A stretch of 64,000 nt of DNA from positions 1 to 64,000 of the forward strand of contig NZ_WRPM01000051.1 in the NCBI RefSeq assembly GCF_009758175.1, read 5' to 3'. Below the pieces are notes generated by a model. It saw only the letters and a list, made by a program, of their open reading frames with translations. It searched no databases and was not told the origin of the DNA. The translations under genes and the position numbers were made by a program. Numbering within the stretch: the stretch's first letter is position 1; each line of letters starts with the position of its first letter. The stretch is from Nesterenkonia alkaliphila. GTDB lineage: Bacteria > Actinomycetota > Actinomycetes > Actinomycetales > Micrococcaceae. Positions 23,186 through 56,456 of the stretch are shown piece after piece.

Positions 23186-24523
23186 ATGGCCAGCGGGGTG
23201 GATATGAGCCCCGCCGGCGGAACCAACTGGCGGGACTGGGACGAATCCCGGGTGCGGGTGCGGGCCAATAAGAAGGGCTCCCGGCCGCGCACCAAGGAGA
23301 CCCCTGACTACTCCGATGCGCAGCTGGCCCGCGTGGTCCAGGTGGACCGTGGCCGCTACACCTGCGCCCTATTGCAGCCGGTGAGGCACGAACAGCGCGA
23401 GGTCCCGGCTTTAGGCGCGAAGGCAGGTGCCGCCGCAGCCGGCCGAGAGGCGGCGGGACAGGAACCGCGACCTGCGGGTCCCGTGCAAACGCCTGAGCGT
23501 TTGTGCGGGCCAGGTCGTGGCGTGCCCGCCGCCGGGACAGTCGCTGCGATGCGCGCCAAGGCACTGCGGCGCACCCCGGTGGTGCCGGGTGATCTGGTGC
23601 GGCTGGTCGGCGACACCTCCGGGGCGGAGGGTTCCCTGGCCCGGCTGGTGCAGGTCGAGGAGCGCCGGACCCTGCTGCGGCGTTCCGCCGATGACAGTGA
23701 TGAGGCCGAGCGGGTGGTGGTGGCCAATGCCGACCAGCTGCTGATCGTGGTGGCAGCGGCCAATCCCGAACCGCGCACCGGGTTCATCGACCGCGCTCTG
23801 GTGGCCGCCTATGAGGCCGGAATCGACCCGATTCTGCTGATCACCAAAGCTGATCTGGCCGATTCACCGCAGGATCCGGCAGGGCTGGTCTCCCACTACA
23901 GCGAGCTGGAGCTGACCACCGTCATCTCCGGGCGTGAGGAGCAGGATCGTCTCGCCGCGGCTGCTGTGGCCCAGTTGCGCGAGCTGCTGGCCGGTAAGGT
24001 CACCGCGCTCATCGGGCATTCCGGAGTCGGGAAGTCCACTATGGTCAATGCGCTCACCGGTGCTGACCGGGCTACCGGCGGGGTCAATGCGGTCACGGGC
24101 CGGGGCCGGCACACTTCCTCCTCAGCAGTCGCCCTGCAGTTGGAACCTGCCCCGGAGCTGTCCGGCGAGCTGCCCCCTGAGCAGGCCTCCCCGTCTGCAG
24201 CCGGCCCAGAGCCCACCGGGTCCTCTCCGGCTGCGGGATGGGTGATTGACACCCCTGGGGTGCGCAGCTTCGGGCTGGCCCATGTCAGCCCGGACGATGT
24301 GCTGGCCGCCTTCGAAGACCTGGTGCAAGGCTCAGTGGACTGCGAGCCCGGCTGCGCACACGAATCTCCCGCCGGCGGCTGCGCCCTGGACGCCTATGTG
24401 GCGGCCGGCCATGCCGGAAGCCACGGGCCGGCGCGGCTGGCCAGCCTGCGGAATCTCTTGGCATCCCTGGCGGGCAGCCAGGACGACGGGCCCCAGAAGC
24501 ACCTCGGCTCCGTGACTGCGTAG
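23186..24523 (+). CDS. rsgA: Ribosome small subunit-dependent GTPase RsgA with repeat insertion
   Basis: A 445-residue circularly permuted GTPase that assists 30S maturation. The order is OB fold, G4 TKAD, P-loop GHSGVGKS, G3 DTPG, then the zinc knuckle CEPGCAH...C. The usual family length is 330-380 residues; residues ~64-119 are an Arg/Pro/Ala-rich insertion within the OB fold, between DRGRYTCALL and AMRAKALRRTPVVPGD. Its second half is encoded by a dispersed 79-base palindromic element. Another in-frame Pro/Glu/Ser insertion sits before DTPG. ATG 23204 is an alternative start. Confidence 0.92.
   Translation: MASGVDMSPAGGTNWRDWDESRVRVRANKKGSRPRTKETPDYSDAQLARVVQVDRGRYTCALLQPVRHEQREVPALGAKAGAAAAGREAAGQEPRPAGPVQTPERLCGPGRGVPAAGTVAAMRAKALRRTPVVPGDLVRLVGDTSGAEGSLARLVQVEERRTLLRRSADDSDEAERVVVANADQLLIVVAAANPEPRTGFIDRALVAAYEAGIDPILLITKADLADSPQDPAGLVSHYSELELTTVISGREEQDRLAAAAVAQLRELLAGKVTALIGHSGVGKSTMVNALTGADRATGGVNAVTGRGRHTSSSAVALQLEPAPELSGELPPEQASPSAAGPEPTGSSPAAGWVIDTPGVRSFGLAHVSPDDVLAAFEDLVQGSVDCEPGCAHESPAGGCALDAYVAAGHAGSHGPARLASLRNLLASLAGSQDDGPQKHLGSVTA
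23461..23539 (+). repeat. Dispersed palindromic element, copy A (inside rsgA)
   Basis: A 79-base segment, 71 of 79 positions identical (by eye) to 36246-36324. Its centre is a hairpin CAAACGC-CTGA-GCGTTTG; the flanks GGTCCCGTG/GCGGGCC and CGCGACCT/AGGTCGTGGCG extend the pairing. It is translated in frame within rsgA. Confidence 0.9.
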
Positions 24524-35571: not shown

Positions 35572-36087
35572 TCAGGACACGCCGAGATTGCGCTGCCGCA
35601 TAGCGCGCTGAGCCTCCCGGGCATCCTGCTTCTCCCGCAGCGTGTGCCGTTTGTCGTACTCCCGCTTACCGGTGGCGATGCCGATCTCCACCTTGGCCCG
35701 GCCGTCTTTGAAGTACAGCCGCAGCGGCACGATGGTCTTGCCCGGATCCTCCACCTGGCGGGAGATCTTGATCAGCTCCTTGCCGTGCAGCAGCAGCTTG
35801 CGCTTACGCCGGGTGGCGTGATTGGTCCAGGTGCCGTTGAGGTACTCCGGGATGTGCACCTGCTCCAGCCAGAGCTCACCACGATTGTCGAAGGCAGCGA
35901 AGCCGTCCACCAGCGAGGCCTGGCCCTCACGCAGTGACTTCACCTCGGTGCCGGTGAGCACCAGTCCCGCCTCGTAGGTGTCAGAGATGGTGTAGTCATG
36001 CCGGGCACGGCGGTTCAGCGCGACCACATGGTTCCTGGGATCGCGTTCGCCCTTGCTCTTCTTCACCGAAGAACTGTTCTTGCCCAT
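35572..36087 (-). CDS. smpB: SsrA-binding protein SmpB
   Basis: A 171-residue tmRNA partner that brings tmRNA to stalled ribosomes. Conserved blocks are [37 protein letters not shown], the [15 protein letters not shown] helix and the C-terminal basic tail [14 protein letters not shown]. The ATG at 36087 follows GGAGG by 9 bases. It lies downstream of ftsX, separated by a 240-base spacer full of palindromes. The tmRNA gene is 5.5 kb away. Confidence 0.95.
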
Positions 36088-36158
36088 CTGCACTCACCTC
36101 CTCGCTGACTGCCAGAGCGCAACAGCCCACTATACCGCTACAGTCAACTGGGTTGTGA

Positions 36159-36228
36159 GCATCGCAAAGCGATGCGTATGAGGAGCGAAGCGACGACTTC
36201 AGGTCTTGAAGCTCGGCGTGAGCCGAGC
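36159..36228. repeat. Pair of perfect hairpins in the ftsX-smpB spacer
   Basis: GCATCGC-AAA-GCGATGC (36159-36175) and GCTCGGC-GTGA-GCCGAGC (36211-36228), both with perfect 7-bp stems, lie beside repeat copy B. They may form one composite element with it, or serve as processing or terminator structures. Confidence 0.75.
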
Positions 36229-36245
36229 GAGAGGCGAGCGGGGCG

Positions 36246-36324
36246 GGAACCGCGACCTCTGGGTCCCGTGCAAACGTCGCAGCGTTTGCGCGGGCCAGGT
36301 CGTGGCGGACCCGCCGCCGGGACA
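36246..36324 (+). repeat. Dispersed palindromic element, copy B
   Basis: Seventy-nine bases, 71 identical to copy A. The centre CAAACG-TCGCAG-CGTTTG preserves the stem although the loop differs from copy A. Outer arms GGCGGGAACCGCGACCT and AGGTCGTGGCGGACCCGCC pair imperfectly. It ends three bases before the ftsX stop codon (minus strand). Confidence 0.9.
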
Positions 36325-36327
36325 AAC

Positions 36328-37245
36328 TCAGACGCGCAGATACTTGCGCACGGTCAGCCAGGAGGAGAGCCCGGCCAGCAGCACGGCAACCAGCACCAGG
36401 GCCGGCATCACGATCCAGGAGTCAGCCGCGGAGATGAACACGATGCCGGTGACCTGCTGGGCCAGCCACTGTCCCATCAGGAACTCCGCCACCACCCAGG
36501 TGGCGGCACAGGCCAGCAGCGACCCCAGCAGAGCAGCGATGATGCCCTCAAAGATGAACGGGGTGCGGATCATCGACTTCGAAGCCCCCACCATCCGCAT
36601 GATGGAGGTCTCCCGGCGCCTGCTGAAGGCGGAGAGCCGGATAGTGGTGGAGACCAGCAGCACGGTACACAGGATCATCACCGCTGCGATGATCAGCGCC
36701 ACCACGGTCAGCCCGTTGAGGATGCTGAAGACCTGATCCAGCACCTCTTGCTGGTCGGCCACGTTCTCCACCCCGGCCACCCCGGCAAAGAGCTCGTTGA
36801 CCAACAGGAAGTCCTGAGGGTCGCTCAGCAGCAGGCGGAAGGACTCCGGCATATCCTCGGCAGTGACATTCTCGGCACGTATGCTGCCCTCCCGGCTGGC
36901 CTGGAAGTTCTCCAAGGCCTCCTCCTGGGACTCGTACCGGAAGGAGTCCACGTACTGGCTGGCCGCCCCAGTGGTCAGCATCTCCTCGATGCTATTGCGC
37001 TGAGCGTCAGTGACTGCACCGGTGGGGCAGGCGGCCTCCGCTGAGTTCTCGGTGCACAGGAACACCGAGATCTCCAGGCGGTCGTAGAAGTCTTCGGTCA
37101 TCTGGTTGACCTGCAGCTGCATCAGAGCGGCAGTGCCCACAAAGCTCAGCGAGATGAAGGTCACCAGTACCACCGAGGCCACCATGGCCACGTTCTTGCG
37201 CAGCGAGCTGAGCGTCTCGCCCAGCTGGTACATCAGTTGGCTCAT
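36328..37245 (-). CDS. ftsX: Cell division protein FtsX
   Basis: A 305-residue permease-like protein with one N-terminal and three C-terminal membrane helices and a large extracellular loop (residues ~45-165) containing two Cys (FLCTENSAEAACPTG). With FtsE it activates peptidoglycan hydrolases at the septum. Actinobacterial FtsX shows the same RETSIMRMVGASKSMIRTPF loop for contact with FtsE. The start overlaps the ftsE stop as ATGA. Confidence 0.93.
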   Translation of the reverse strand: MSQLMYQLGETLSSLRKNVAMVASVVLVTFISLSFVGTAALMQLQVNQMTEDFYDRLEISVFLCTENSAEAACPTGAVTDAQRNSIEEMLTTGAASQYVDSFRYESQEEALENFQASREGSIRAENVTAEDMPESFRLLLSDPQDFLLVNELFAGVAGVENVADQQEVLDQVFSILNGLTVVALIIAAVMILCTVLLVSTTIRLSAFSRRRETSIMRMVGASKSMIRTPFIFEGIIAALLGSLLACAATWVVAEFLMGQWLAQQVTGIVFISAADSWIVMPALVLVAVLLAGLSSWLTVRKYLRV

Positions 37246-56414: not shown

Positions 56415-56456
56415 GCGGTTGTGCGGGCCAAGTCGTCGCGCGCCCGCCGCGGGGGC
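56415..56456 (+). repeat. Dispersed palindromic element, half copy C
   Basis: Forty-two bases matching the right half of copy A at 36 positions (TTGTGCGGGCCAAGTCGTC core). It fills the gap between lexA and the convergent dinG-type gene and ends exactly at that gene's stop codon. Confidence 0.75.

Follow-up and report, generated by a model that had tools for sequence, protein, structure and literature searches.

The window, that is, the whole stretch of 64,000 nucleotides of Nesterenkonia alkaliphila DNA which was analysed (contig NZ_WRPM01000051.1, positions 1 to 64,000), carries at 23186-24523 on the forward strand an open frame of 445 amino acids encoding RsgA, the ribosome small-subunit biogenesis GTPase, with an insertion. 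The GTPase domain was recognised in a profile search (Pfam PF03193, E 6e-40) and the protein matches TIGR00157 above its cut-off. RsgA matches were found in 37 of 38 genomes, including the N. alkaliphila genome itself (G000; 3.32 Mb, 103 contigs), and the best-matching loci among the named genomes are those of Nesterenkonia, N. ebinurensis first. One record with an Arthrobacter-like RsgA (L194) is titled Sporosarcina beigongshangi, for which mislabelling or contamination is possible.

In the N. alkaliphila protein, 45 extra residues, predicted from the open frame, separate REV (residues 71-73) from VAAMRAK. These residues (74-118, PALGAKAG...VPAAGT) correspond to a composite palindromic element of 135 bp at 23405-23539, forward strand, delimited by the alignment with 22 same-genus RsgA sequences and by matches elsewhere in the genome. 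The frame of the conserved flanks is unbroken; the flanks are 80-81% identical to those of the relative G023 and are in one frame. The loop from VDRGRY to MRA measures 63 residues versus 11 to 28 in the 22 same-genus relatives. The insertion is missing in all 22 orthologues that were read and is present, among these, in the N. alkaliphila genome alone; the 23rd same-genus genome (G016) has stops in its RsgA match and stands outside the loop count. In the 80 RsgA loci kept, which overlap in species with the 22 orthologues, the loop has 13 to 17 residues in 78 cases; a single locus has 27, and that of Candidatus Nesterenkonia stercoripullorum (L132, 1001-2209) about 50. This last loop was considered as a second insertion at the same site and rejected, as blastn gave no match between it and the element portion of the copies retrieved. 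Given the short loop of the relatives, the segment is also ruled out as a general feature of RsgA orthologues. No convincing target-site duplication was seen: at this site, the sole empty site resolved to the base, the element has just the trinucleotide GTC on both sides, and this could be due to chance.

Since the loop varies from 11 to 28 residues in the relatives and an unrelated one of about 50 residues is found in one species, this position in the N-terminal OB domain looks like a tolerant place for insertion, and in view of this tolerance RsgA with a flexible insert of 45 residues should stay functional. An AlphaFold model built with 22 sequences gave pLDDT values of 29-36 for the blocks of the insert (mean of the model 56.3); since most of the N-terminal domain is of low confidence too, the model is compatible with a flexible insert and is no proof of it.

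The element is composed of two units, both on the forward strand. The left unit (A half; 23409-23457) starts with CTTTAGG, contains a short hairpin and is matched by the covariance model R2 with E 5.2e-8, this copy being among the 13 sequences used to build R2. Inside the A unit lies an inner long hairpin of about 60-62 bp, the B unit (23461-23522), defined by the hairpin model and by comparison of short and long forms of the element. Its apical stem-loop (23486-23503), evident in the fold and containing covarying pairs, is formed by CAAACGC (23486-23492), the loop CTGA and GCGTTTG (23497-23503). The hairpin models R1 and R3 match in full at 23449-23538 (E 1.0e-15 and 3.2e-19), the copy being among the building sequences of both. 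The predicted RNA fold of 23405-23545 has an energy of -88.4 kcal/mol (z -4.37), and none of 200 shuffled sequences was equally stable. A scan of the window with Rfam at gathering threshold returned solely tmRNA and a tRNA, by which a known Rfam RNA is ruled out as the identity of the element.

A second composite copy, non-coding, is found on the forward strand at 36198-36324 between smpB (35572-36093, reverse strand) and ftsX (36328-37245, reverse strand), two genes named by eye, with coordinates from the codon-usage finder. The right end (GGGAC) of this copy and the stop codon of ftsX are 4 nt apart. Positions 23437-23539 of rsgA align with it at 88% identity (E 5.5e-30 in the search of the whole genome), and all 24 consensus pairs are formed in both copies. 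The word GACG is present just left of the copy (36192-36195), and a further left-hand repeat, of the type GAGGAGCGAAGCGACGACTT, precedes several copies, including this one (36150-36197) and those of loci L002, L004, L018 and L030. A partial third copy, consisting of the right arm, is located at 56415-56454, forward strand, between two convergent genes (L015; E 2.2e-7).

When aligned, the copies form a mosaic of units. The A unit begins with CTTYAGG, carries the short hairpin and ends in GGGAC, with a length of 64-71 bp in six short copies; the rsgA and ftsX copies have the B unit, the short ones lack it, and a B-like unit without the A half is found in an ABC-transporter ATPase of N. alkaliphila and in PurD of the relative G002. 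Over its full length the unit starts with CTTTAGG... and finishes with ...GGGAC, which by eye are not inverse copies of each other; the B unit in itself is one hairpin. The initial annotation had described correctly the stem, the 90% identity of 23461-23539 to 36246-36324 (71 of 79 bases) and the non-coding nature of the latter copy, which lies directly behind the ftsX stop. It had also rightly placed the element within the rsgA frame; its estimate of about 56 added residues has to be lowered to 45, and the inserted unit extends beyond its 79-base segment, since the stretch on the left (about 23409-23457) is a repeat too.

The rsgA segment yielded 24 matches in the N. alkaliphila genome at E <= 1e-3, itself counted, the best others having E values of 2.7e-33 and 5.5e-30, and the 36.2-kb copy as query yielded 23, again counting itself. 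As even the closest of the other copies show 12-17% difference to that of rsgA, no recent burst of copying is apparent from the sequences. Three covariance models were used, R1 built from 13 copies, R2 on the A half and R3 from 38 matches; with 114-150 candidates scored per genome, all copy numbers derived from them are lower bounds. In N. alkaliphila R1 detected at least 17 hairpins at E < 1e-6, including rsgA, and R3 at least 26 at E <= 1e-3, a few of which overlap or sit on opposite strands of one palindrome. R2 matches numbered at least 48 in N. alkaliphila, at least 40 in G014, 23 in G001, 16 in G013 and 13 in G023, with smaller counts of at least 5 in G004, 3 in G007 and 1 in G010. Among the candidates scored, 16 of the 24 genus genomes had no R2 match and 14 of 24 no R3 match; R1 and R3 had no match among those scored in 14 genomes of other families, in which R2 gave a single weak one (E 0.0026). 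Compared with the models, an exact pattern search found less, with 21 matches distributed over 6 of 38 genomes. Tandem arrays are found in relatives. Those of the A unit are located at G014:C4:226254-226444 (spacing about 72 bp) and G023:C24:25101-25282 (about 69 bp), and an array of long hairpins at G002:C1:1710587-1710888 (L101, L115, L118, L120; 58-bp spacing, five exact pattern matches) lies directly behind a gene resembling that of the uridylate kinase PyrH (named by eye), the CCCTGAGG of its hairpin containing the stop codon. In G008 a single hairpin is present at a similar gene end (L104).

The hairpin is kept across the repeat family. In an alignment of 37 distinct rows, which was fitted to the model and so leans the counts towards the structure, and in which one row is an opposite-strand match and three are units from a single tandem array, the structure of 24 pairs is formed in 94.7% of cells, and 13 of the pairs, for a total of 107 cells, are changed on both sides; none of 500 shuffles scored as high by any of five measures, and control structures slid along the alignment were paired in just 35-54% of cells. 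RNAalifold on the first 13 copies reported compensatory changes in 10 of the 24 pairs. Covarying arms would be expected if a mobilising machinery recognises the hairpin or if the hairpin acts in mRNA.

For the placement relative to genes, these were called with a codon-usage finder trained on the window, so that cases at N-termini hinge on the choice of the start codon. Of at least 150 R2 matches in all, the count covers 127, which belong to six genomes (46/48 in N. alkaliphila, 20/23 in G001, 34/40 in G014, 13/13 in G023, 10/16 in G013 and 4/5 in G004); the matches of G007, G010 and G026 are outside it. A-half matches were non-coding in 111 cases and within predicted genes in 16, the latter being 12 of 46 in N. 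alkaliphila and 4 of 81 in the five other genomes; for three of the 12 (L043, L213, L216) the assignment hinges on the choice of start codon. In 84 of the 111 non-coding copies the next feature on the right is the stop of an antisense gene; measured from where the left half ends, it is 17-31 nt away in 49 and 75-95 nt away in 11, these last including tandem units and a few whose end misses the stop. On the left the next feature is a sense stop in 50 of 111 copies (within 15 nt in 6, at 16-40 nt in 9). Taken together, 60 of the 111 non-coding copies lie in one orientation and at defined distances from a stop codon. Two forms can be distinguished by the distance from left-half end to stop, about 24 nt versus 75-90 nt, the second represented by six long copies of N. 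alkaliphila. An antisense stop is present within 120 nt in 71 copies, and the last GRRAC-like word lies exactly 4 nt from it in 38 of these, some of which are counted twice, as tandem units upstream of one stop were counted separately, here as in the count of the 111; in nine of the remaining copies GGGA or GGAA runs straight into the complement of the stop.

For the ftsX-smpB site 12 syntenic stretches were fetched; ftsX was not found in two of them (G001, G014), and in all ten relatives in which it was found the spacer is short and free of the repeat. The end of the N. alkaliphila FtsX protein is native-like (VRKYLRV). On account of this native-like end and of the repeat-free spacers of the relatives, the element entered directly behind the pre-existing ftsX stop.

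RsgA is not the only protein with such an insertion. In a Sir2-type deacetylase the element is found in the same loop (QNVDGLH...VELHG) in N. alkaliphila (L042, R2 E 3.1e-5) and in G023 (L224, R2 E 9.7e-9), and an alignment of orthologues showed it to be missing in 22 of 22 other members of the genus; the Sir2 of G016 has a longer loop, in a genome without matches to R1, R2 or R3. The same site being occupied in two species suggests that a decorated gene may persist, or be hit again, after separation of the species. The ABC-transporter ATPase of N. alkaliphila carries an insert of 20 alignment columns containing MARTDPYGSARVPDV, missing in all 14 same-genus relatives aligned, one of which (L327) has a different short insert nearby. 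An insert of 20 columns, AARTDADASARGPDVGGPES, is present in PurD of G002 and missing in 17 of 17 readable same-genus genomes, N. alkaliphila counted (G016 is unreadable at the site). Among solved structures, 11 PurD chains all match in two stretches, the best of which ends at residue 226-238; for the ABC ATPase the two alignments shown do not reach the insert. Comparison with orthologues confirms predicted in-frame insertions in RsgA, Sir2 and the ABC ATPase of N. alkaliphila, in Sir2 of G023 and in PurD of G002. As a separate observation, PurD and PurC form one continuous frame in G002 (L112); in the loci compared (L112, L355-L361) one match spans both in G003, G013, G001, G008, G006 and G009, and the two are separate in N. 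alkaliphila and others.

Further candidate copies within genes concern the tails of LeuC (L018), TruA (L211), an alpha/beta hydrolase (L203) and a PatB-like lyase (L209), a DUF3375 protein (L011), a TIM-barrel protein (L013), a protein of 714 amino acids (L220) and a TatB-like tail (L088), named by eye without a Pfam match. In relatives, candidates are the tail of TrpE (L268) and a MurT-like ligase (L276) in G014, and a protein similar to haloalkane dehalogenase (L108) in G002. The N-terminal candidates L043, L093, L106, L213 and L216 hinge on the start codon chosen. The frames of LeuC (L018:44-1543), the alpha/beta hydrolase (L203:109-1143) and TruA (L211:1502-2428) end inside the element, which seems to supply their C-terminal residues and stop codon (e.g. 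...LHA*).

The initial annotation had also taken the hairpin of rsgA to be selected. This is borne out by covariation for the family and gains no support from the rsgA copy alone, because the rsgA insertion was found in one genome. Had all RsgA orthologues carried the segment and no other copies existed, the idea of an inserted repeat would have failed; the opposite was found, with the segment missing in 22 of 22 orthologues and dozens of copies elsewhere. The covariance-model search which it had proposed showed many copies in N. alkaliphila, fewer in some Nesterenkonia and almost none in the 14 genomes of other families. Its suggestion of an actinomycete analogue of the Rickettsia palindromic elements is supported, other in-frame copies having been verified against orthologues; self-spreading and domestication, which it also raised, would be possibilities beyond this support.

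On this evidence we consider it highly probable that 23405-23539 belongs to a family of palindromic repeats, dispersed, lineage-specific within Nesterenkonia and most probably non-autonomous. A different account would have the repeats act in RNA, as terminators or as hairpins for ribosome termination or mRNA stability, under selection at the 3' ends of genes, with the rsgA copy being an accident, e.g. of gene conversion or recombination. The stability of the hairpins and the set distances from stop codons in one orientation agree with such a role; the lack of matches, among the candidates scored, in 14 (R3) and 16 (R2) of 24 genus genomes does not, nor does the ftsX-smpB site empty in ten relatives. 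Copies at unrelated places are moreover similar in sequence, beyond shape alone, and some are inside frames, a terminator having no reason to be inside PurD or the ABC ATPase. We therefore regard this account as unlikely.

Less probable still is a canonical REP/BIME, a palindrome tagged with GTAG or CGTC and moved by a RAYT (Y1 tyrosine transposase). The Nesterenkonia repeat is palindromic, dispersed, mostly extragenic, near 3' ends and sometimes in genes, with stop codons at the ends of the element, all of which is reported for REPs in the account of PMC3733652. Yet GTAG, CTAC, CGTC and GACG are all missing from the rsgA element, and with respect to control stretches the four words are not enriched within the 127 left halves and not markedly more frequent where the copies begin on the left; of 125 such ends, GACG was found in 10 (58 of 738 in the control) and GTAG in 5 (24 of 738). 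The units measure 60-135 bp, as against the 20-40 bp given for REPs. The Y1 transposase domain (Y1_Tnp, PF01797) had no match in N. alkaliphila or in any relative with matches to the repeat models; it was found in 2 of 38 genomes (G006 and G037), neither with an R1, R2 or R3 match, and in 5 of 14 control genomes. Based on the tag words and on the lack of PF01797 in the N. alkaliphila genome, a RAYT-type REP was set aside. A hypervariable, GC-rich, low-complexity loop of RsgA with chance likeness elsewhere would fit the variable length of the loop in relatives and the unrelated one of about 50 residues, and is virtually excluded by the E values of 2.7e-33 and 5.5e-30 in the genome, the two-part architecture common to the copies and covariation beyond that of shuffles.

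For the mobile repeat family, movement can be envisaged as follows. A trans-acting enzyme would recognise the folded hairpin, as single-stranded DNA or RNA, and copy the element to new sites. The usual landing beside a stop codon would do little harm and be nearly neutral, so that copies could accumulate; the rare insertions within genes would survive only with a length divisible by three, a frame free of stops and a tolerant loop or tail as the site. A B-like unit would in this way add 20 residues, as in PurD and the ABC ATPase, and the composite 45, as in rsgA. More tentatively, and with somewhat less than even confidence, we propose that this is an undescribed and still moving actinobacterial palindromic element made of two nestable hairpin units (A of about 64-71 bp, B of about 60 bp or 20 codons), mobilised by an enzyme targeting stop codons, and that it may be a frame-neutral, recurrent source of peptide segments in housekeeping enzymes (RsgA, Sir2, PurD, the ABC ATPase, the tails of LeuC, TruA and others).

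The closest known system in behaviour is that of the Rickettsia palindromic elements, described in PMC10969869 as being of about 150 bp and forming ten families; in R. conorii nearly half of them are in-frame parts of unrelated genes. Common traits are the palindromic structure, the dispersal in the genome and the in-frame insertions in several unrelated genes, missing from orthologues. The likeness is an analogy of behaviour across different phyla, and the Nesterenkonia repeat differs in having only 16 of 127 examined left-half copies in predicted genes, over half of its non-coding copies at defined distances from a stop codon, and a combination of two units. Intragenic REPs of several bacteria are also comparable: as described in PMC3733652, dimers or groups encode 20-30 residues and larger clusters 43-82, termini can supply the stop codon and the palindromes lie near gene 3' ends. 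The main text of that paper makes no mention of actino-, Mycobact-, Streptomyces, Arthrobacter, Micrococc- or Corynebact-. The Nesterenkonia palindromes share with these REPs the position near gene 3' ends, the termini with stop codons and the presence of some copies in genes; they differ from the GTAG- and CGTC-tagged REPs in having no enriched tags, longer units and no Y1 transposase found in the genome.

MIRUs are not known to be palindromic. According to the account in PMC12548453, MIRUs are actinobacterial, apparently mobile short repeats located exactly at gene boundaries; their insertion takes place at start codons, and an internal ORF is coupled at a spacing of -4 nt. The Nesterenkonia repeat is likewise an actinobacterial repeat at gene boundaries, but it is a hairpin beside stop codons in over half of its non-coding copies and is found inside genes as well. 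MITEs such as ERIC, YPAL and NEMIS are, in the descriptions of PMC10969869 and PMC3733652, small, non-coding and hairpin-folding, and when located within genes they can form in-frame fusions with ORFs. With these it shares the small size, the folding into a hairpin and the lack of own coding capacity; by eye, no terminal inverted repeats were seen over the whole unit, and no target-site duplication was established. A search of the open-licence literature, judged by titles and beginnings of abstracts, found no earlier description of palindromes in frame within genes, either for Nesterenkonia or for Actinobacteria, which does not prove their absence. In-gene palindromes are already known elsewhere, as described in PMC3733652, and the Nesterenkonia repeat is a variant of that kind.

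Palindromes which code for protein segments were recognised first in Rickettsia and later as REPs in genes of some other bacteria, and here there is a clear case in an actinomycete genus. As species with and without each insertion are available, it can be tested whether the added segment is a tolerated passenger or changes the function of the enzyme. The Nesterenkonia case also allows for the study of the movement of an element without a known transposase.
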